Assembly: GCA_040219515.1 (NCBI GenBank) | Contig: JAVJSI010000017.1 | Location: forward strand, 1-64,000 | DNA: 64,000 nucleotides | Source: Acidimicrobiales bacterium | GTDB lineage: Bacteria > Actinomycetota > Acidimicrobiia > Acidimicrobiales > Aldehydirespiratoraceae | Direction of reading: 5' to 3' | In this document: positions 52,702 through 63,310 of the stretch, one piece after another | How the letters are laid out: each line of letters begins with the position of its first letter | Position numbering within the stretch: the first letter of the stretch is position 1 | Program-made: the position numbers and the translations under genes | Notes under the pieces: model-generated | Told to the model about the DNA's origin: nothing | Seen by the model: the letters and a program-made list of their open reading frames with translations, nothing else | Databases searched by the model: none

Positions 52702-52973
52702 ATCGTGGCCCAGAGGCCGTGTTCGTGGAGGCGGAAGACGTCGTTCTCGGCCTTCTCCTTCGGACCCGACGACACGACGGCGCGACCATCGACGTGGACC
52801 TCCATCATGAGGCGGTTGGCCTTCTCCTCGGAGAAGCCGAACAGTTTCTGGAACACGAAGGCGACATAGCTCATCAGGTTGATGGGATCGTCCCAGACGA
52901 TGACCTTCCACGGACGGGAGAGATCGTCGTCGCTGTCGATGTCGGGCTCGATGACACTGAGCGGCGCCGTCAT
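52686..52973 (-). CDS. clpS: ClpS adaptor
   Basis: 95-residue adaptor that delivers N-degron substrates to ClpAP/ClpCP. The core (about 20-95) has the N-degron pocket residues in [18 protein letters not shown], then [17 protein letters not shown] and the last strand [21 protein letters not shown] 52973 overlaps the ctaA stop (ATGA), so clpS is co-translated with heme A synthase, an uncommon partner. It is followed by the DUF2017 gene as in other Actinobacteria. In-frame extension upstream of 52973 lies inside ctaA. Confidence 0.93.
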
Positions 52974-53830
52974 GTCCGCGCCACCTGATCGAGCCGGACG
53001 ATGTGAATCCACGTGATCGACGCGAGCGTGATGTGGACGGCCACCAACAGCACGGGCACCCCCGTGAAGTACTGCCAGTAGCCGACCGCGGCCTGGGCGA
53101 TGAGCAGTGTCGACACGATCGCCGCCGGTCGGATCAACTCGCCGTGATGTCGATTGCGCGCCACCCAGACCAGGCGGATCACCGCGAGGATCAGCGCCAG
53201 CGCCGTGACGCTGTGGATTCGGGTGACGTCACGAACGAGGAACGGCAGCCGTTCGGCCACCTCGGCCTCGTCGCTGCCCGAGTGGGGTCCGGTACCGGTG
53301 ACGATCGTGCCCATGACGAGCACGACGGCACCGCCGAGCAGGATGCCACGGGTCCATCGACGCAGTGGATGGCGCGGGGGAGGGGCAACGAGCGGATCGG
53401 GAATCGCCGCACGGTGCATCAACACCGCGGCGTTCCACAGCAGAACCATCGAGAGCAGGAAGTGGCCCATCGTGAACCGGGGGTCGAGCTCGGTCTTGAC
53501 GAGAATGCCGCCCAGCACGATCTGGGCGAGCACGCCGGCGACGAGGCCCCACGACAGGCGGATGAGGTCGGCGCGACGCGGCGTGCGGCGCAGTGACCCG
53601 AGTACCGCGCCGACCACCGCGACCGTGACCACGCCGGTGAACATCCGATTCCCGAACTCGATCAGGCCGTGGAACTCGAAGTCGGAGACGAGTTGGTTCT
53701 CCTCGCAGTTCGGCCAGTCGGAGCAGCCGAGCCCCGATCCCGTGAGCCGAACCGCGCCACCGCTGACGACGATGATCGTCAGCGACCACAACGCGGCACG
53801 GGTGAGGGAGAGGTAGCGGGCCGGGCTCAC
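52970..53830 (-). CDS. ctaA: Heme A synthase (CtaA/COX15)
   Basis: 286-residue eight-helix membrane protein that oxidises heme O to heme A for the aa3 oxidase. The N-terminal half has [18 protein letters not shown] (paired Cys) and FGNRMFTG; the C-terminal half has [17 protein letters not shown] and [11 protein letters not shown], supplying heme-binding histidines. GTG 53830 follows TACGCT by 6 nt on the minus strand. It is divergent from ctaB with 59 bp between, so both heme-modifying enzymes share one regulatory region. The stop overlaps clpS. Confidence 0.94.
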
Positions 53831-53836
53831 GACGAA

Positions 53837-53881
53837 AGCGTACGGCCCCGTTGGGCGGTCCTGCCCTGTCGGCCGTAGCCT
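53837..53881. promoter_or_regulatory. Divergent ctaA/ctaB promoter pair
   Basis: TACGCT on the minus strand (53837-53842) lies 6 nt before the ctaA GTG, and TAGCCT on plus (53876-53881) lies 8 nt before the ctaB GTG. Both starts look leaderless. Confidence 0.55.
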
Positions 53882-53889
53882 TGTGTCTC

Positions 53890-54783
53890 GTGACCGCCAC
53901 CGTCCCCACCCGTCGTCCGCGCGCGCTCGCCTTCATCGCGCTGACGAAGCCGCGGATCATCGAGCTTCTCCTCATCACCACCGTGCCCACCATGGTCGTG
54001 GCCGAGGGCGGCGTGCCGTCCTTGTGGCTGATGGTCGCCACGGTGCTGGGCGGCACCCTCGCCGCCGGTGGTGCCAACGCGTTCAACATGTACATCGATC
54101 GCGACATCGACCGGTTGATGGAACGCACCAAGGGCCGTCCGCTCGTCACCGGCGAGGTGACCCCGCGTGAAGCCCTGATCTTCGCCTTCGTCATCGAGAT
54201 CGCCGCGTTCGCGTTCCTCTGGGGGTTCGTGAACCTGCTGTCGGCGGTACTCGCCGTGTCGGCCACCTTGTTCTACGTGTTCGTCTACACGATGTGGTTG
54301 AAGCGCACCTCCACCCACAACATCGTCATCGGCGGGGCCGCCGGTGCCGTGCCGGTGCTGGTCGGCTGGTCGTCGGTCACCAACGAGCTCGACTGGCCGC
54401 CCGTCATCTTGTTCGCCATCATCTTCTACTGGACGCCGCCCCACTTCTGGGCCCTGGCGATCCGCTACAAGGACGACTACCAGGCGGCCGACGTGCCGAT
54501 GCTCCCTGCGGTCGCCTCGCTGCGCACCACATGCGGCCGCATCGTCGTCTACACCCTCCTCCTCTGGGCGCTCACCCTCGCCTTCGGACCGGTGGCCGAC
54601 ATGGGCGCCACCTACTACGTGGCCGCCGTCGTGCTCGGCGCGGTCTTCACCGGTCTCGCGGTACAGGTCTTTCGTCGCCCTGAGCCCGCACTTGCCATGC
54701 GTCTGTTCGGCTGGTCCATCACGTATGTGACCCTGCTCTTCGGCGCGATGGCCGCCGATGAGATCGTCCGCAACGGCTTCTGA
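53890..54783 (+). CDS. ctaB: Protoheme IX farnesyltransferase (heme O synthase)
   Basis: 297-residue UbiA-family enzyme that adds a farnesyl group to heme b. The prenyl-diphosphate site is NAFNMYIDRDIDRLMERT, and the second Asp-rich region is RYKDDYQAADVPML. Nine hydrophobic segments are visible, as usual. GTG 53890 is chosen on the TAGCCT hexamer 8 nt upstream and the short charged N-terminus. The gene stands 201 bp before the oxidase operon, in the same direction; that gap holds a GGAGGAC ribosome site for the next gene but no clear terminator. Confidence 0.95.
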   Translation: MTATVPTRRPRALAFIALTKPRIIELLLITTVPTMVVAEGGVPSLWLMVATVLGGTLAAGGANAFNMYIDRDIDRLMERTKGRPLVTGEVTPREALIFAFVIEIAAFAFLWGFVNLLSAVLAVSATLFYVFVYTMWLKRTSTHNIVIGGAAGAVPVLVGWSSVTNELDWPPVILFAIIFYWTPPHFWALAIRYKDDYQAADVPMLPAVASLRTTCGRIVVYTLLLWALTLAFGPVADMGATYYVAAVVLGAVFTGLAVQVFRRPEPALAMRLFGWSITYVTLLFGAMAADEIVRNGF

Positions 54784-54984
54784 GCACCATCGGCGGAGAA
54801 AATCCGTCGAAAATCCTCTGCCGCCCGGTTTCCATACCGGTGCGCGGAGGGTTGTAGGCTCCCGTCTCGGTACTGCACCTCGAAGCTGTCGCGTTCTTCG
54901 CGGCTCGCGCCGTCGTGTGCCACGAACGAAGCAACAGCTGCGCCACCGCTGTCCCGGTGCAACTGTCGGAGGACACCTGCCACC

Positions 54985-56649
54985 ATGACGATGACCGACT
55001 CACCGCCGGCAACTGACATTGCCCATGCCGACAGCGCCGCTGCGGTGGCTTCTCCTGTCGCCGGGCTCTACGAGGCCCTCACCAGCACCGACCACAAGAT
55101 CATCGGCCGTCTCTGGCTGCGCGCCGGCGTGCTCATGCTGATCGGCGCGGTCGCTCTCGGCGTGTTGCTGGGCTTCGAACGAGTCGACGGCGCCTCCACC
55201 GACATCTTCGGCGGTGACAACGCCTACTTCCAGGTGTGGGCCCTGTATCGCATCGGTCTGGCGCTGCTCGTCGCCGCACCGCTCTTCATCGGTCTGGCCA
55301 TGGTCGTGGCACCGATGCAGGTCGGGTCGACCAACATCGCCTTCCCCCGCGCCGCACTCGCCTCCGCCTGGGGCTTCATGATCGGCGCCGTCATCATGAT
55401 CGTCGCGGTGCTCGCCGGTGGCGGCTGGGGTGCGGTCGATCAGGCCAGCGGCGACGAGCGCGATGCCGTCGCGCTCACGCTCGTCGGCATGGCGATGGTC
55501 GTCATCTCACTGCTGCTCGGTGCGCTGTGTGTGGCCACCACCGTCGTCTCCATGCGGGTCAAGGGCATGACGCTGTTGCGAGCCCCGCTGTTCGCCTGGT
55601 CGATGCTGGTCGCCTCGGCCGTCTGGCTGCTCACCCTGCCGGTGCTGCTCGCCAACCTCCTGATCGCCTACGTCGACCTCCACAACGGTCCCGGCACGTT
55701 CGGCGGCGGGCTCAGCGGTGACCTCAGCATCTACGGCCAGGTCGACTGGCTCGTCCAGCAGCCGCAGGTCTACGCCTTCGCCATCCCCGTACTCGGCGTG
55801 CTCGGCTCGATCGTGCCCGTCACCGCAGGGGTGCGGGCCGGCCGTCACGGCCTGTCGATGGGCCTCATCGGGTTCTTCGGGCTCCTCTCGGTCGGCGCCT
55901 GGGCCCAGCCCTACTTCCAGCCCACGAGCGACGCCGTGGTGCGCTACGACGAGAAGTTCGTCTACATCGCCTTCGGCATCGCCGCGATCCTGCCGGTCCT
56001 CGGTGCGTTGGGCGGCGCCGCCGACGCGCTGTTCCGCGGTCGCAACAATTTCGCCGGACTTCCGCCGGCCCATGTGCTGGGTGCGCTCGGTGCCGGCCTC
56101 CTGCTGCTCGTCGGCACCGCCGCCGGTGTGGCTCGCGTCGTCGAACCGTTCGAGCTCGGCGATCGCGTCACCACCAGCGGCGTGATGAACCTCGTCCTCT
56201 TCTCGGCCATCGCCGCAGCCGTCGCCGGCATGTGGTTCTGGGCCCCGAAGATCGGCGGCAGCGAGCTTCCGCCGATGATGGGCCGACTCGTTGCCGTCAG
56301 CCTGATCGGCGGCGGCCTGCTCCTCGGCGGTGCCCAGGTCGTCAACGGATTCTTCGAGACCAGCGTCGTCCCGCTCGTGGCCCCCACCGACGACGTGGGC
56401 GACGCGCTGAACGTCGTGTCGCTCCTCGGCATGCTCCTGATCGCGGTGGGCGTGCTCGGCCTCGTCGCCGCGCTGGGCAAGGCTCTGCGCTCCACCGAGA
56501 CGGCGGCCGACGACCCGTGGGGCGGTCACACCCTCGAATGGGCCACCGCCACACCGCCGCCCCCCGGCAACTTCGCCGAGGCGCCCGCCCTCGTCACCTC
56601 CGAGGCACCCCTGCTCGATGCACCAACCGACGAAGGAGGGGAGCCCTAG
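54985..56649 (+). CDS. Oxidase subunit I homologue lacking all metal ligands
   Basis: 554-residue membrane protein, about 12 to 14 helices, homologous along its length to CtaD encoded 4.4 kb downstream: shared STDHKIIG, QVGSTNIAFPR, MTLLRAPLFAW, FWAPKIGG and a DPWGG..LEW C-terminus. Aligned to CtaD, every cofactor ligand is changed: helix II His92 is Tyr88; GHPEVY is QQPQVY (His to Gln259, Glu to Gln261, Tyr263 kept); the CuB pair HH is Gln308-Pro309; HFH is Gly399-Val-Met401. It cannot bind heme a, heme a3 or CuB in the known way. The intact frame and operon position argue for a selected structural or regulatory role. Confidence 0.88.
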   Translation: MTMTDSPPATDIAHADSAAAVASPVAGLYEALTSTDHKIIGRLWLRAGVLMLIGAVALGVLLGFERVDGASTDIFGGDNAYFQVWALYRIGLALLVAAPLFIGLAMVVAPMQVGSTNIAFPRAALASAWGFMIGAVIMIVAVLAGGGWGAVDQASGDERDAVALTLVGMAMVVISLLLGALCVATTVVSMRVKGMTLLRAPLFAWSMLVASAVWLLTLPVLLANLLIAYVDLHNGPGTFGGGLSGDLSIYGQVDWLVQQPQVYAFAIPVLGVLGSIVPVTAGVRAGRHGLSMGLIGFFGLLSVGAWAQPYFQPTSDAVVRYDEKFVYIAFGIAAILPVLGALGGAADALFRGRNNFAGLPPAHVLGALGAGLLLLVGTAAGVARVVEPFELGDRVTTSGVMNLVLFSAIAAAVAGMWFWAPKIGGSELPPMMGRLVAVSLIGGGLLLGGAQVVNGFFETSVVPLVAPTDDVGDALNVVSLLGMLLIAVGVLGLVAALGKALRSTETAADDPWGGHTLEWATATPPPPGNFAEAPALVTSEAPLLDAPTDEGGEP

Positions 56650-57240
56650 ATGACTGCCGCCACCACCGGTCTCCCGTCGGCCGAGGTCACCCGTCCCCGC
56701 ACGGTCCTCGTCGGCACCATGTTCGCCTCCGCTGCCGCCTTCATGGCGTTCGTCGGGGTCGTGCTCGTCTATGTCCACGAGCGGGCCGAGGCCGTCGGCT
56801 CGGACAGCGAGTGGTTCCCCGAGGGCGCCGTGCAACTCGGACCGGCCGGGTTCGTCCTCTCCACGCTGATCCTGTCGATCTTCACCATCCAATGGGCGTT
56901 GCAGGCCATCACCAACGACGACCGCAAGAACGCCCTCGTGGCGCTGGCGCTGTCGAGCCTCTTCGGTGCCGCGGTGTTCAATCAGCTCTGGTTCATCATC
57001 AACGACACCGGCTTCACGCTCTCGGCCACCAACGCCCAGTTCATGTTCTTCGTGGTGCTCGGCACCTTCACGGCGTTCATGATCAGCGCGGTGGTCTTCG
57101 TCGCACTCACCTTCCTGCGGGCCCTCATCGGGCAGTTCGGCCCCCGCAAGGCCGATTCGGTCGCCGCGGCCGCTTTCTACTGGAACACAGTCGTCGCAAT
57201 GTATGCGATCGCCTGGTACGTCATCTTCGTCACGAAGTAG
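56650..57240 (+). CDS. Degenerate oxidase subunit III-like membrane protein
   Basis: 196 residues with five to six helices, aligning to CtaE of the same operon in spacing and in the final helix (YWNTVVAMYAIAW against YWHFVDVVWIFIF). Positions typical of subunit III are gone: the SECLLF Glu is in an ASAAAF context, and the histidines of GFHGVH and YWH are absent. It starts directly after the TAG of the subunit I-like gene with no gap, so the two are coupled and may form a metal-free I/III-like pair. The N-terminus is polar and cytoplasmic. Homology is weaker than for the preceding gene and should be tested with structure prediction. Confidence 0.65.
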   Translation: MTAATTGLPSAEVTRPRTVLVGTMFASAAAFMAFVGVVLVYVHERAEAVGSDSEWFPEGAVQLGPAGFVLSTLILSIFTIQWALQAITNDDRKNALVALALSSLFGAAVFNQLWFIINDTGFTLSATNAQFMFFVVLGTFTAFMISAVVFVALTFLRALIGQFGPRKADSVAAAAFYWNTVVAMYAIAWYVIFVTK

Positions 57241-57247
57241 GGATCAG

Positions 57248-58096
57248 ATGTTCACCACGGGCTTCAAGTTCTTCTTCGGCACCGGCGTCGCGCTCGCGAC
57301 CGCCGGTGTCCTCTACGGCTACACCACCGGCGGCAACCACATGGGCCCGCTCTCCCTCGGTTGGAAGGGCGGCGTCGGCGAGCATGTCGGCTACGGCCTC
57401 CTCGTGGGCCTGGGCGTCACCGCCATGGGCGTCGCCCTCACGCTGATCTTCTTCCGCGACGCCGACCCGGCCGACCAGGCCGACTACATGGGGGTCGACG
57501 ACATCGCGCCCAGCGCGCCGGTCACCGCCAGCCCGTGGCCCATCGTGGGCGCGTTCGGCGTCGGCACCATGGCGGTGGGCCTCGTGCTCAACACCGCGGT
57601 CTTCATCACCGGCCTCGTCATCGTCGGTGCCGTGGCCATCGAGTGGATGATGGACGCATGGGCCGACCGGGCGACCGGCGACCCTGCAGCCAACCGGGCC
57701 CTGCGCAACCGCATCATGGCGCCGATCGAGATTCCGGCCGCCGGCACGGCGCTCGTCGCCGTCGGCGTTCTCGCCGTGTCGCGGATCTTCCTCAACGTCT
57801 CGCCGCTGGGCGCCGTCGTCATCGCCGGTGTCGTCGCCGTGGTGATCCTCGGTGTCGGCGTGCTCGGCGCCCTCGACGTCAAGATGAACCGCAACATCGC
57901 CACCGGCCTGGCGCTCGTCGTCGGTGTCGTGGTGCTCGGCGGCGGCGTCTGGGCAACCGTCGACGGTGAACGCGAATTCCACCCGCACGAGATCGAGGGC
58001 GAAGAGGGCCACGGCGGGGATCACGCCGAGGACGACGGCGAGGATCATGCCGAAGACGATGGCGAACACTCTGACGGAGACACAGACAGTGAGTGA
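57248..58096 (+). CDS. Seven-helix membrane protein with His/acid-rich tail
   Basis: 282 residues with about seven hydrophobic segments (near 7-27, 41-62, 93-110, 112-131, 160-180, 190-212 and 218-240). The last 35 residues are almost only His, Asp, Glu and Gly (HPHEIEGEEGHGGDHAEDDG and on), suggesting cation binding. I do not recognise a family. It begins 7 bp after the subunit III-like gene and ends just before ctaC, so it belongs to the oxidase operon. Possible roles are copper handling, assembly or a subunit; none is proven. ATG 57248 follows a GGATCAG sequence. Confidence 0.7.
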   Translation: MFTTGFKFFFGTGVALATAGVLYGYTTGGNHMGPLSLGWKGGVGEHVGYGLLVGLGVTAMGVALTLIFFRDADPADQADYMGVDDIAPSAPVTASPWPIVGAFGVGTMAVGLVLNTAVFITGLVIVGAVAIEWMMDAWADRATGDPAANRALRNRIMAPIEIPAAGTALVAVGVLAVSRIFLNVSPLGAVVIAGVVAVVILGVGVLGALDVKMNRNIATGLALVVGVVVLGGGVWATVDGEREFHPHEIEGEEGHGGDHAEDDGEDHAEDDGEHSDGDTDSE

Positions 58097-58097
58097 C

Positions 58098-59384
58098 ATG
58101 CGCAACTTCCGACGGCGCCTTCCCGGTGCCGGCCTCATCGCGATGCTGGGTCTCCTGCTCGCCGGCTGCGCGAGCGACGCCGAACTCGACACCCTGAAGC
58201 CCGAGAGCGACGTCGCCAACGAGATCTACGATCTCGTCCTTCCGGTGTTCATCGTCGGCGGCGTCGTCCTGGTGCTCGTGTGCGCCGCCGTCCTCTGGCT
58301 GTCGGTGAAGAACCGGGTCGACAGCTACGAGGGCGACGACGAATTCCCCGAGCAGATCTCCCACAACAACACCCTCGAGATCAGCTGGACCATCGGCCCG
58401 GCCCTCGTGATGGCGATCATCGCCGCTGCCACCGTGGTCACCCACATCGCCATCAACAAGGACGAGGCGGCCGCCATCGAGATCGAGGTCGCCGGTGAGA
58501 TCACCTCGTGGGACCCGACAATCGTCGTGGTCGGCCAGCAGTGGTGGTGGGAGTACCGCTACTACCTCAACGAGTTCGACATGGATGCCTCGATGCTCGA
58601 GGACCCGCGCGACCTGCCGCCGGCCGACATCGTCACCTCCGGCCAGTTCGCCATCCCCACCGGTGTCGAGGTCGACCTCGTGATCACTTCTCGCGACGTG
58701 ATCCACTCACACTGGATTCCCCGCCTCAACGGCAAGCGCGACGCGGTGCCGGGCCGCTTCTCGCCGTGGAAGATCGAGGCCGATGAACCCGGCGTCTACT
58801 TCGGTCAGTGCACCGAGTTCTGCGGTCTCTCCCACAGCCGCATGCGCATGCAGGCCATCGCGATGGACCAGCCCGAGTTCCAGGAGTGGATCGACATCCA
58901 GATGTCGCCGGCCACGTTCGACGACGAACTCCAGCCCTATGTCGACTCCTACATCGAGACCGGCGCGGGTTCGTTGCCCGACGATCCCGGTATGGCCCTG
59001 CGCGGACTCGACGTGTTCGTCGCCCAGTGTGCCTCGTGCCACCTGGTCAACGGGCTCAACGACGGTGACTACGACGGCGCCGAGGTCGTGTCCGGTTCGG
59101 CGCCGAACCTCACCCACCTCATGCAGAACACCACCTTCGCCGGCGGCATCCTCGATCTCTACAACGAGGACGGCACGGTGAATCGCGACGACCTGGCGGC
59201 ATGGATCCGCAATCCGGCCGACATCAAGGCGAACTTCGCCAACGACCTCGCGGACGGCGAGCTGCCCCGCGGTATGCCCAACCGCAACCTGACCGAACGA
59301 CAGATCGACGACGTGGTCGTCTTCCTCGAGACGCTGGGCCCGCGCCCACCCGACGAGCGCATCGCAGCCACGGAGGTGGAGTGA
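58098..59384 (+). CDS. ctaC: Cytochrome c oxidase subunit II fused to cytochrome c (caa3 type)
   Basis: 428 residues. A lipoprotein signal ends in LLAGC (Cys24). Two membrane helices (about 45-70 and 95-118) precede the cupredoxin domain with the CuA ligands His203, Cys238, Glu240, Cys242, His246 and Met249 (CTEFCGLSHSRM). A C-terminal cytochrome c domain has the heme site CASCH (311-315) and a likely axial Met in RGMPNRN. Electrons thus pass from heme c to CuA within one protein. ATG 58098 is chosen for the lipoprotein signal; GTG 58089 is possible. The start is next to the upstream stop. Confidence 0.93.
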   Translation: MRNFRRRLPGAGLIAMLGLLLAGCASDAELDTLKPESDVANEIYDLVLPVFIVGGVVLVLVCAAVLWLSVKNRVDSYEGDDEFPEQISHNNTLEISWTIGPALVMAIIAAATVVTHIAINKDEAAAIEIEVAGEITSWDPTIVVVGQQWWWEYRYYLNEFDMDASMLEDPRDLPPADIVTSGQFAIPTGVEVDLVITSRDVIHSHWIPRLNGKRDAVPGRFSPWKIEADEPGVYFGQCTEFCGLSHSRMRMQAIAMDQPEFQEWIDIQMSPATFDDELQPYVDSYIETGAGSLPDDPGMALRGLDVFVAQCASCHLVNGLNDGDYDGAEVVSGSAPNLTHLMQNTTFAGGILDLYNEDGTVNRDDLAAWIRNPADIKANFANDLADGELPRGMPNRNLTERQIDDVVVFLETLGPRPPDERIAATEVE

Positions 59385-59385
59385 C

Positions 59386-61392
59386 ATGGCGATCACCGAA
59401 GAGCCCCTCGCACTGACAACGGGTGAAACCGCAGCCGCGGCCCGTCCGCTCGGCGCCCTCACCCGACCCCAGGGCGGCAACGGCTGGCGAGACTGGCTCA
59501 GCACCGTCGATCACAAGAAGATCGGCATCATGTACGGCGTCGCGGCCATGTTCTTCTTCGTCGTGGGCGGTATCGAAGCGCTGCTCATCCGCATCCAGCT
59601 GGCGGCCCCCGAGGGACAGTTCCTCTCGGCCGAGGTCTACAACCAGGTCTTCACGATGCACGGGGTCACGATGGTGTTCCTGTTCGTGATGCCGCTGGCC
59701 GCGGCCTTCGCGAACTACCTCATCCCGCTCCAGATCGGCGCCCGTGACGTGGCGTTCCCCCGTCTCAACGCCCTGTCCTTCTGGATCTGGCTGTCCGGCG
59801 CCATCTTCTTGAACACCTCGTGGTTCGTGGGCGGCGGAGGCGCCGACTGCGGCTGGTTCTGCTACTCGCCCAACAGCGGCGTGGCGTTCTCACCGAGCAA
59901 TGGCGTCGACTTCTACGCACTCGGCCTGCAGATCGCCGGCATCGCGTCGCTGATCGGTGCCATCAACCTGATCGTGACCGTGCTCAACATGCGGGCGCCC
60001 GGCATGTCGCTGTTCCGCATGCCGATGTTCACCTGGCTGATGCTCGTCACGCAGTTCCTGTTGCTCTTCGCCCTGCCGGTCATCACGGTGGCGCTCTTCC
60101 TGCTGATGTTCGATCGGCTCTTCGACGCCCAGTTCTTCAATCCGGAGACCGGCGGTGATCCACTGCTGTGGCAGCACTTGTTCTGGATCTTCGGTCACCC
60201 CGAGGTGTACATCATCATCCTGCCGAGCTTCGGCATCATCTCGGAGATCATCCCGACGTTCAGCCGCAAGCCCATCTTCGGCTATTCGTTCATGGTCTTC
60301 TCCGGCATCGCCATCGGCTTCATGGGCTGGGGCGTGTGGGCCCACCACATGTTCGTGTCGGGCATCGGACCGTTCTCGGTGGCCGCCTTCTCGCTCTCGA
60401 CGATGTTCATCGCCGTACCGACGGGCGTGAAGATCCTCAACTGGCTCGCCACGATGTGGGGCGGCAAGATCCGCCTCACCACCGCGATGCTCTACTCGGT
60501 CGGCGCCGTTGCGATGTTCACCATCGGCGGTGTGTCCGGCGTCACCCACGCCCTGGCGCCGGCCGACACCCAGCAGACCGACACCTACTACATCGTGGCC
60601 CACTTCCACTACGTGATCTTCGGTGGCGGCGTGCTCGGTCTGCTCGGTGGCCTGTACTTCTGGTTCCCGAAGATCTTCGGCTTCATGCTCAACGAGACCA
60701 TCGGCAAGGTCAATTTCTGGCTGATCCTGATCGGTTTCAACCTCACCTTCGGTCCGATGCACGTGCTCGGTCTCCAAGGCATGAGCCGCCGTATCGACAC
60801 CTACTCGCCAGGATTCGGTTTCGAGCTGTGGAACCTGGTCGCAACCATCGGTTCGTTCACCATCGCGGCCGGAATGCTCGTGCTCTTCTTCAACATCTGG
60901 AAGTCGAAGCGCGATGCCGCCGACCTCCCGGCCCCCGGACCCGACCCGTGGGACGCCCGCAGCCTCGAGTGGAGCGTTCCTTCGCCCACCCCCGAGCACA
61001 ACTTCGACACCGTTCCGGTGGTCGAGGGCGTCGACGAATGGTGGCATCGCAAGTACGGCTACGACGAGGACAAGCGCGTCGTTCGCATCGCCACGATCGA
61101 GGAAGCCGCCCAGGACGGCTCGGCCACAGGTGTGCACCTCCCGGCGCCGTCGTTCTGGCCGCTGGTGTTGGCTGCCGGACTGCCGCTCATCGGCTATGGC
61201 CTGATCTTCAACCTGTGGCTCTGTGTGATCGGTGGCGCCCTCACGGGCATCGCCATGTACTCGTGGGCCCTCGAACCCGTCGATGACCCTGACGCCGGGC
61301 ACGACGACCATCACGACGACGGTCACGACGACCCTGACGACGACCCTGAGCACGCAACCGCGGTCACCGCCGGCGCCGAAGGAGGCGAGTGA
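59386..61392 (+). CDS. ctaD: Cytochrome c oxidase subunit I (active)
   Basis: 668-residue catalytic subunit that reduces O2 to water and pumps protons. All ligands are present: His92 (TMHGVTMVF), His271 and Tyr275 in GHPEVY (the cross-linked His-Tyr), His320-His321 (WAHHMF), and His406/His408 (AHFHYV). About 14 membrane helices run to residue 610; the C-terminal tail (about 630-668) is extremely rich in His and Asp. GHPEVY with Glu indicates an A-type oxidase. It begins one base after the ctaC stop. It is the normal counterpart of the ligand-less homologue earlier in the operon. Confidence 0.97.
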   Translation: MAITEEPLALTTGETAAAARPLGALTRPQGGNGWRDWLSTVDHKKIGIMYGVAAMFFFVVGGIEALLIRIQLAAPEGQFLSAEVYNQVFTMHGVTMVFLFVMPLAAAFANYLIPLQIGARDVAFPRLNALSFWIWLSGAIFLNTSWFVGGGGADCGWFCYSPNSGVAFSPSNGVDFYALGLQIAGIASLIGAINLIVTVLNMRAPGMSLFRMPMFTWLMLVTQFLLLFALPVITVALFLLMFDRLFDAQFFNPETGGDPLLWQHLFWIFGHPEVYIIILPSFGIISEIIPTFSRKPIFGYSFMVFSGIAIGFMGWGVWAHHMFVSGIGPFSVAAFSLSTMFIAVPTGVKILNWLATMWGGKIRLTTAMLYSVGAVAMFTIGGVSGVTHALAPADTQQTDTYYIVAHFHYVIFGGGVLGLLGGLYFWFPKIFGFMLNETIGKVNFWLILIGFNLTFGPMHVLGLQGMSRRIDTYSPGFGFELWNLVATIGSFTIAAGMLVLFFNIWKSKRDAADLPAPGPDPWDARSLEWSVPSPTPEHNFDTVPVVEGVDEWWHRKYGYDEDKRVVRIATIEEAAQDGSATGVHLPAPSFWPLVLAAGLPLIGYGLIFNLWLCVIGGALTGIAMYSWALEPVDDPDAGHDDHHDDGHDDPDDDPEHATAVTAGAEGGE

Positions 61393-61394
61393 TC

Positions 61395-62024
61395 ATGGCA
61401 ACAGCCACGCTCGAGAGCCACGACACCCACGACGATCACGGCCACGGGACATCCACCGGCATCTCCAACACCAAGTTGGCCATGTGGACCTTCCTCGGGT
61501 CGGAATGCCTCCTCTTCGGTGGCCTGATCTCGACCTACCTGCTCTACAAGACCCGTCGCGGCCCCGGCCCCGACAACACCACGATCCCGACCGACATCTT
61601 CGACATCCCGTTCACCTCGGTGAGTTCGTTCGTGTTGCTCATGAGCTCGCTCACCATGGTGTTGGCGCTGTCGGCACTGACCCGGGGCGACAACCGGGCC
61701 ACCCGGGCGTGGCTGCTCACCACTGCGATGCTCGGTGGCGTCTTCATCGGCGGTCAGGTCTACGAATTCACCGCCTTCCTGCGCGAGGGAGTGGGCTTCA
61801 CCCACAACCCCGCCAGTTCGGCCTTCTACACGCTCACCGGCTTCCACGGCGTCCACGTGAGTCTCGGCATCGTCATGCTGATGTCGCTCGTCGTCGCCTC
61901 GAAGCAGGGAAAGCTCACCCCCAAGAACACCGAGACCGTCGAGGTCGTCGGCCTCTACTGGCACTTCGTGGATGTGGTGTGGATCTTCATCTTCACCGTC
62001 ATCTACCTCATCCCGACCGAGTAA
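61395..62024 (+). CDS. ctaE: Cytochrome c oxidase subunit III
   Basis: 209-residue membrane subunit with five helices after an N-terminal segment rich in His and Asp (ESHDTHDDHGHG). The conserved Glu is in GSECLLFGG, and GFHGVHVSLG and YWHFVDVVWIF are the family motifs. Subunit III stabilises proton uptake in subunit I. ATG 61395 follows GGAGGC; GTG 61389, overlapping the ctaD stop, is an alternative. The gap to ctaF is 13 bp. Confidence 0.94.
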   Translation: MATATLESHDTHDDHGHGTSTGISNTKLAMWTFLGSECLLFGGLISTYLLYKTRRGPGPDNTTIPTDIFDIPFTSVSSFVLLMSSLTMVLALSALTRGDNRATRAWLLTTAMLGGVFIGGQVYEFTAFLREGVGFTHNPASSAFYTLTGFHGVHVSLGIVMLMSLVVASKQGKLTPKNTETVEVVGLYWHFVDVVWIFIFTVIYLIPTE

Positions 62025-62037
62025 CGGAGCCCTGAAC

Positions 62038-62397
62038 ATGAGCGAAACCGTCACCGAGACCGCCACCGCCGAGGATGCAGCCGACGACGCGCACGAGGCG
62101 GGAGCCCACGAGCATCCGTCGGACTGGGCCTACATCAAGATCGCGCTCGTCCTCGCCGTGTTCACCACGATCGAGGTGCTGACCTACTTCGAGTCGGCCC
62201 TGCCGATCTTCGAGAACAACGCGGTCACGATCACGACACTGCTCGTGCTCATGGTCGTGAAGTTCTACCTCGTGGCCACGTGGTTCATGCACCTGAAGTT
62301 CGACAACCCGATCTTCGGCCGAATGTTCCTGGCCGGCCTCGTGCTGGCCACCGGCGTCTACATCATCGCGCTGAGCGCCTTCGAGTTCTGGGCCTGA
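62038..62397 (+). CDS. ctaF: Cytochrome c oxidase subunit IV (CtaF-like)
   Basis: 119 residues with three membrane helices (about 33-52, 61-82 and 96-116). The pattern HPSDWAYIKIALVLAVFT and VVKFYLVATWFMHLKFD is that of bacterial caa3/aa3 subunit IV (COX4_pro), a small structural subunit. The N-terminal 28 residues are acidic with several His. ATG 62038 follows CGGAGC. It ends 4 bp before ctaG. Confidence 0.88.
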   Translation: MSETVTETATAEDAADDAHEAGAHEHPSDWAYIKIALVLAVFTTIEVLTYFESALPIFENNAVTITTLLVLMVVKFYLVATWFMHLKFDNPIFGRMFLAGLVLATGVYIIALSAFEFWA

Positions 62398-62401
62398 TGT
62401 C

Positions 62402-63310
62402 ATGACGGCGAACCTCCTCGCCGCAAGTCCCTGGTCGTTCCAGCCGCACCCCGAGGTGTGGCTGCTCATCGCCGGCATCGTCGGGATGGGGTACTACGCC
62501 ACACGGTCGATCGGGCCGCTGGTGGTACCCGCAGGCGAGCCGGTGGTCACCACCGCCCAGAAGCGCTTCTTCGCCGTCGGCGTGATCCTCCTGTGGGTCG
62601 CCGCCGACTATCCGATGCACGACATCGCCGAGGAGTACCTCTACTCGGTGCACATGTTCCAGCACCTGCTCATCACCTTCATCGTGCCGCCGCTGCTGTT
62701 GCTGGCGATGCCCGAGTGGCTGGCCCGTCTCCTCATCCTCGACGGCGGTACCACTTCACGGGTCCTGCGGGTGCTCACCAAGCCCGTCGTGGCCGGGGTG
62801 ATCTTCAACATCTTCCAGATCCTCACGCACTGGGGCACGGTGGTGAACACGAGCGCCGACAACGGTCCGTTCCACTACATGATCCACCTGTGCATCTTCG
62901 GCGCCGCGCTGCTCATGTGGTTCCCGGTCCTCGGCCCGCTCAAGGAAGTCCAGATGAGCGAACCGGGAAAGCTCCTCTACCTCTTCCTCATGTCGATCGT
63001 GCCCACGGTCCCGGCCGGCTGGCTGACGTTCGCCGAGGGTGTCGTCTACGAGGCCTACGACACCGACACGAACCTCTGGGGCCTCAACCCGACCAATGAT
63101 CAACAGCTCGCCGGGGCGATCATGAAGGTCATCGGCGGCTTCTACCTCTGGGGCCTCATCGCCATCCGGTTCTTCCGCTACACCGCCACCCTTCGAGCGG
63201 CCGACTTCGAAGGCCGAAGGACCGCAGGTCGACTCACCTACTCCGATGTGGCGAAAGCCTTCGACGACGCCGGCGTCCCCCCACGCGAGCCCGAAATCGA
63301 GTCGAGTTAG
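62402..63310 (+). CDS. ctaG: Cytochrome c oxidase assembly protein, CtaG (caa3_CtaG) type
   Basis: 302-residue membrane protein with about seven helices. Conserved features of the caa3_CtaG family are DYPMHDIAEEYLYSVHMFQH, with several His and Asp in the membrane region, and ILTHWGTVVN plus FHYMIHLCIFGAALLMW. It is thought to help insert copper into CuB, and is unrelated to Cox11. It is the last gene of the operon; its tail is polar and charged. The 71-bp gap to serS holds nested inverted repeats. Confidence 0.88.
   Translation: MTANLLAASPWSFQPHPEVWLLIAGIVGMGYYATRSIGPLVVPAGEPVVTTAQKRFFAVGVILLWVAADYPMHDIAEEYLYSVHMFQHLLITFIVPPLLLLAMPEWLARLLILDGGTTSRVLRVLTKPVVAGVIFNIFQILTHWGTVVNTSADNGPFHYMIHLCIFGAALLMWFPVLGPLKEVQMSEPGKLLYLFLMSIVPTVPAGWLTFAEGVVYEAYDTDTNLWGLNPTNDQQLAGAIMKVIGGFYLWGLIAIRFFRYTATLRAADFEGRRTAGRLTYSDVAKAFDDAGVPPREPEIESS

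Follow-up and report, generated by a model that had tools for sequence, protein, structure and literature searches.

The caa3 oxidase operon in the window (the entire 64,000-nucleotide stretch of Acidimicrobiales DNA analysed here) is headed by three genes, psI, psIII and psIV, which are followed by CtaC-CtaD-CtaE-CtaF-CtaG and which come without a subunit II of their own. We consider this trio, with a probability of roughly 0.55, to be the remnant of an A-type oxidase that has become a cofactor-free pseudo-oxidase and is retained as a partner of caa3 in structure or assembly. The initial annotation had recognized a lone subunit I pseudoenzyme; the ligand loss on which it was based stands, but the unit is a module of three genes and not a single one. 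Its observation that psI is an intact frame of 554 codons at the first position of the operon was borne out, as the reading frame is open and heads a tight row of plus-strand genes, in which (from psI onward, and with two starts inferred) neighbours overlap or are separated by no more than about 16 bases. The genes of the region are:

52970..53830, minus strand: CtaA, heme A synthase, divergently oriented (COX15-CtaA, 5.7e-23)
53851..54783, plus strand: CtaB, heme O synthase, upstream of psI (UbiA, 4.5e-65)
54985..56649, plus strand: psI, subunit I homologue without metal ligands (554 aa; COX1, 7.5e-33)
56650..57240, plus strand: psIII, divergent subunit III homologue (196 aa; COX3, 28.7 bits)
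57248..58096, plus strand: psIV, subunit IV (CtaF)-like membrane protein (282 aa; acidic, His-containing tail)
58098..59384, plus strand: CtaC, caa3 subunit II with a cytochrome c domain (COX2, 2.3e-24; Cytochrom_C, 2.3e-7; start inferred from a lipoprotein-like signal)
59386..61392, plus strand: CtaD, subunit I with all ligand His (COX1, 9.2e-158)
61389..62024, plus strand: CtaE, caa3 subunit III (COX3, 4.3e-20)
62038..62397, plus strand: CtaF, small subunit IV of the COX4_pro type (COX4_pro, 1.2e-9; start inferred)
62402..63310, plus strand: CtaG, caa3 assembly factor (Caa3_CtaG, 8.6e-41)

As CtaC carries a cytochrome c domain, the active enzyme of this operon is of the caa3 type, and its CtaD (six of six ligand His) scores 708 bits against the curated equivalog TIGR02891 (cut-off 670.75). 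A search of the window's own genome with psI matched only psI itself and this CtaD. Promoter and terminator scans of positions 54600-59500 yielded nothing above chance. Towards the C-terminus of CtaD, residues 579-630 (window 61120-61275) match Cyt_c_ox_IV (3e-6).

The homology of psI to subunit I is evident from its match to Pfam COX1 (PF00115; 114.5 bits, cut-off 34.8), while its score against TIGR02891 (189.3) falls below the cut-off given above. The collinearity with the operon CtaD asserted earlier was recovered (30% identity, with motifs common to both along the length of subunit I), and the AlphaFold2 model of psI alone, a check that had been proposed alongside it, is confident (pLDDT 87.6, pTM 0.91) and predicts the fold of a heme-copper oxidase subunit I; a fold search with this model matched solved subunits I, including those of E. 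coli bo3 and mycobacterial aa3. Metal ligands define heme-copper oxidases, and in a 146-row alignment none of the six ligand columns of psI holds a His (Tyr88, Gln259, Gln308, Pro309, Val400 and Asn402), whereas the 71 distinct non-psI sequences have His in all six, gaps excepted. The loss of all six ligands thus holds for the window, although the last two replacements had been given as Gly399 and Met401, a shift by one residue that leaves the outcome unaltered, since residues 395-405 contain no His. It does not hold for every relative, as early-branching ones keep some of the heme ligands (see below). The cross-link tyrosine was correctly reported as retained: Tyr263 occupies this position in psI, and the column is Tyr in 47 and Phe in 17 of the 65 distinct psI rows (74 before identical ones were dropped). 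At what we take to be the D- and K-channel positions, psI has Asn117 and Ala341, and the channel residues themselves are found in few of the distinct psI rows (Asp in 2/65, Lys in 0/65).

The residues that replaced the ligands are in part conserved. Q308 (at the CuB2 column, where other sequences have His) and E65 are psI-specific residues that differ from the active enzymes, each present in 62/65 rows, and Gln stands at the CuB1 column in 45/65. Such conserved polar residues at former ligand positions imply that the old cavity may have found a new use, and are what speaks for a new membrane role unrelated to caa3 (e.g. as a channel or carrier that uses the scaffold of subunit I, with linkage keeping it in the operon). 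We regard this alternative as improbable, given that the tight co-inheritance with caa3 and the retention of subunit III and IV relatives point to a role linked to the oxidase.

These two relatives differ in how readily they are recognized. psIII lies just above the cut-off of COX3 (PF00510; cut-off 23.8) and below that of the actinobacterial CtaE model NF050119 (36.8, cut-off 190), and the profile of its family finds bovine COX3 (4.1e-23) and M. smegmatis CtaE (4.4e-21), which establishes it as a subunit III homologue. For psIV, a Pfam scan of the window protein gave no match, and PF12270 was found in 4 of 42 relatives with weak E-values (best 0.0018). Its profile searched against the PDB gave weak matches, the best to an N-terminal COX3 (E 0.022) and another to mycobacterial CtaF (positions 7-129, E 0.24). 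In a profile-profile comparison (hhalign) with actinobacterial CtaF (a set of 19 sequences, cleaned by removing five rows, psIV and others), however, psIV scored 96.3% (E 1.4e-9, 110 columns) and none of five controls exceeded 10.8%, by which the possibility that psIV is an unrelated protein was rejected. The two top PDB fold matches of psIV are likewise CtaF chains (8hcr_H and 7q21_F), both weak (E 0.17 and 0.52); VIA-align scored psIV against CtaF chains at Z 6.5 and 7.0 over some 60 residues of a model with pTM 0.49, values that stay (as do all psIV rows) below Z 8 and that rhodopsins, VTC and others equal approximately. Judged from their sequences, psI, psIII and psIV resemble an aa3-type oxidase reduced to its subunits I, III and IV, with subunit II missing. 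The tail of the window psIV (57995-58093) is acidic and contains several His, at the place where early relatives have a cupredoxin domain.

psI is nearly universal within its family, with matches in 50 of 51 genomes; the sole genome without one (G032) gave no CtaD match in the same search either. Five of the 50 matches cross a TGA codon, and in all five it is where a shorter psI (about 502-523 codons), one without the C-terminal tail, naturally ends. A sequencing error or pseudogene was rejected on these grounds (50/51 genomes, TGA codons that are natural stops) together with the low dN/dS reported below. The order psI-psIII-psIV-CtaC-CtaD is conserved among the rows listed and the further loci examined. 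At broader taxonomic ranks we followed the trio by means of psIV: its profile matches 192 of 395 genomes of the class, of which 96 belong to the same order and cover most of the profile length, while the listed matches from other orders span positions ~137-262 only. The same pattern emerges across the phylum (86/396 genomes), where 20 genomes of the order match over most of the profile and 66 others in its second half only.

Within the order, the presence of psIV (and not of psI, which was not the marker here) coincides with that of caa3. Among the order genomes with a CtaD match at 1e-150, a caa3-type CtaD (defined as E 1e-225 or better) was found in 95 of the 96 that bear psIV, and all 95 with a caa3-type CtaD carry psIV, in contrast to 0 of the 41 with only a more distant CtaD (E ~1e-150 to 1e-167; classed by the E-value of the match, with the sequence inspected for some). 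The single exception (G236) has psIV and a CtaD at 2.7e-177 in two matches. The co-occurrence with the oxidase that the initial annotation had proposed to look for is therefore present, and we argue that, jointly with the operon position, it suggests a physical partnership of the trio with caa3; co-inheritance of psIV and caa3 could also follow from operon linkage alone. Outside the order, six loci of the class have a caa3 operon without the trio, so caa3 in general does not need it. In one genome of another order we noticed a CtaD 77% identical to that of the window (G304:C243:14680-16428), attributable to assembly contamination or gene transfer.

These occurrences also bear on the main rival explanation, according to which the module is an assembly factor: it would bind CtaC or nascent CtaD for a time, or hand over heme or copper, and would not form part of the completed enzyme. 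The location of the trio between CtaB and CtaC (with CtaA and CtaG nearby) fits such a function, and gene duplication is named as a source of oxidase biosynthesis factors in an available excerpt of PMC9145763. On the other hand, other orders manage with caa3 and without the trio, and three homologues of structural subunits seem more than a chaperone would need; we thus hold this explanation to be unlikely, while ranking it above the other alternatives.

The genes of the trio evolve under purifying selection, as had been anticipated for psI. Its dN/dS is far from neutral (Nei-Gojobori median 0.181, range 0.077-0.353) in 83 close, non-independent pairs that were picked by psI divergence (0.02 < dN < 0.25). 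For the same kind of pairs, the medians were 0.189 for psIII (83 pairs), 0.208 for psIV (72), 0.185 for CtaC (26), 0.135 for CtaD (14) and 0.133 for CtaE (17), with one CtaE pair reaching 1.138; CtaB, misaligned in one locus (L032), was left out. Since psI had the higher value in 11 of the 14 pairs shared with CtaD (equal in 2, lower in 1), and since its identity in distant relatives such as L041 is lower (~37% vs ~70% for CtaD), the constraint on psI appears looser than that on CtaD.

In a maximum-likelihood tree of 68 rows (from which L106_can0 was left out), psI forms one clade (24 rows, support 100/100) and the caa3 CtaD another (14 rows, 100/99). The hypothesis that psI is a recent duplicate of the operon CtaD was rejected on this basis, as the clades are separate and psI falls outside that of its partner. 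The actinobacterial-type aa3 rows are not monophyletic in this tree, and the exact sister of psI is not fixed there. psIII constitutes a clade of its own as well (SH-aLRT 99), albeit in a quick tree in which L219 and L164 were mislabelled by the score threshold.

The ligands still present in some relatives allow the order of loss to be reconstructed. Across 93 psI rows (the 65 distinct ones and 28 added, with gaps scored as no His and three rows gapped at ligand columns), the number of ligand His is zero in 45, one in 16, two in 23 and three in 9. Homologues with a full ligand set, which would have spoken for a sequencing or alignment error, were not encountered: all six His occur in 0/93 rows, and the CuB2 His in none. 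The CuB3 His is found in a single row, the long-branch L152 (and in none of the 65 distinct rows of the first alignment), and the heme a3 His in 9/93 (0/65 in the first alignment). The CuB1 His, present in 14/93, counts against our preferred reading. In four psI sequences (L053, L055, L056 and L061), the only ligand His are those at the heme a (TM II) and CuB1 columns, either kept or regained.

The heme a pair is kept in 25 of the 93 rows, 9 of which also have the heme a3 ligand. All 13 rows of the L150 group have the pair (9 of them with the a3 ligand), and in the 9 rows of family f20 no ligand other than the pair is left. With the ligand columns masked, psI was again recovered as one clade in a quick tree; as drawn, this tree calls for three state changes of the heme a pair, two of which well-supported branches make unavoidable. 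The most likely course, as far as it can be read from the sequences, is that CuB was lost in the common ancestor of psI and the hemes later, at least two times. Because the heme pair was lost while the protein was retained, the present role of psI would be one that does not use heme.

The early branches also differ from the window in psIV. In two early groups this protein ends in a cupredoxin domain, detected as PF13473 in the four that were scanned (L149 7.6e-9, L150 1.6e-11, L170 4.1e-11, L148 1.1e-9), and all 19 psIV found in these groups have the type-1 copper motif; at three f20 loci (L234, L236 and L238) a psIV match was absent. Among the relatives of the window the motif occurs in 0 of 61 psIV rows, and it is absent from four other derived loci too. 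Both rows of family f137 have lost the heme pair, and one of the two carries the copper motif. Heme ligands and copper domain thus disappear together mostly, not strictly, for three loci (L066, L077 and L086) keep the pair without the motif and one (L229) the motif without the pair. The psIV of family f2 (L151:8226-9356, plus strand) carries a long C-terminal domain that lacks the type-1 copper motif and may be a degenerate cupredoxin.

Heme a ligands in a quarter of the rows (25/93), combined with a copper motif throughout the early-group psIV, would accord with a redox relay, in which electrons would still pass through an unrecognized cofactor site of the trio, in the way that heme a and blue copper may conduct them in the early branches. 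For the window we deem this the least probable of the alternatives: its psI has no ligand His at all, its relatives lack the copper motif, and a strict link between heme and copper is broken by the four loci just named. Without sites to reduce O2 or to carry electrons, the window psI is no oxidase, and a structural role is the most likely one. The non-catalytic role tied to the active oxidase that had been postulated at the outset finds support in the ligand loss, the dN/dS and the co-occurrence with caa3.

Taken together, we favour the cofactor-free remnant over these alternatives and picture its history as follows. The starting point would have been an A-type oxidase that probably belonged to the actinobacterial aa3 kind (as suggested by the subunit types and matches); its subunit II would have gone first and the metal sites after it. 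The common ancestor would have been devoid of CuB and still equipped with heme a and with the blue-copper domain on psIV, both of which its descendants would have lost more than once while retaining the protein; the early forms with heme and copper may have acted as an electron relay. psI, psIII and psIV may still assemble into a I-III-IV complex that binds the active caa3, through CtaC or as a second protomer, where it could stabilize the enzyme, organize its electron donors or help in its assembly. The more far-reaching version, in which the whole I-III-IV branch is a pseudoenzyme lineage (CuB lost in its ancestor, hemes at least twice) that now serves caa3 as a metal-free second protomer or platform across one order, with the intermediates preserved in relatives, we put forward tentatively, at slightly less than even odds.

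Among characterized systems, the actinobacterial aa3 oxidase (M. smegmatis, PDB 6hwh and 6adq) comes closest, with a TM-score of 0.82/0.83 between the predicted psI fold and 6hwh_Q, a subunit III homologue in psIII and a CtaF-like protein in psIV matching its CtaD-CtaE-CtaF. It differs in that the window psI has no ligand His, has its D- and K-channel residues replaced and comes without a subunit II of its own. The caa3 of the same operon shares one gene row and the subunit I motifs with psI, but its CtaD has all ligands and belongs to a separate clade. The NO reductases of the superfamily generally keep their metal ligands, unlike psI. Most psI rows moreover keep the Tyr, whereas eNOR and other NO reductases are, in an available excerpt of PMC8756737, described as superfamily enzymes with Gln where oxygen reductases have Tyr. 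Full-text searches turned up no description of a ligand-less subunit I, within a scope that most subscription papers fall outside and that offers no proof of novelty. If our reading is correct, a conserved ligand-free branch would demonstrate that selection can act on the scaffold as such, and its relatives with three, two, one and zero ligand His would form a natural record of a respiratory enzyme being emptied of its cofactors, which makes the usefulness of the scaffold directly testable. Moreover, COX1 matches in such genomes risk being counted as oxidases though they are not.

As to other respiratory components, a search for NrfD (alternative complex III) in the window's genome (G000) returned no match and alternative complex III was rejected accordingly, while cytochrome b gave one match. 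Inspected by eye, a contig of the same genome (C18; L180:5380-9508, minus strand) has an apparently split cytochrome b (a b6-like and a subunit IV-like reading frame), a Rieske-like reading frame and another that has a pair of CxxCH motifs; NADH dehydrogenase-like genes lie nearby. In other orders, three caa3 operons encode, after CtaG, a membrane-anchored cupredoxin protein (L142:8156-8944, minus strand; L145:7923-8687, plus strand; L147:7960-8691, minus strand) whose membrane portion is matched by the latter half of the psIV profile; a CtaF fused to a protein of this kind may have given rise to psIV. A further locus from another order (L158:4574-10514, plus strand) has CtaB, CtaG (on the opposite strand), CtaC, an all-ligand CtaD, CtaE and a CtaF-like protein in a row, an arrangement that possibly pictures the state before decay.
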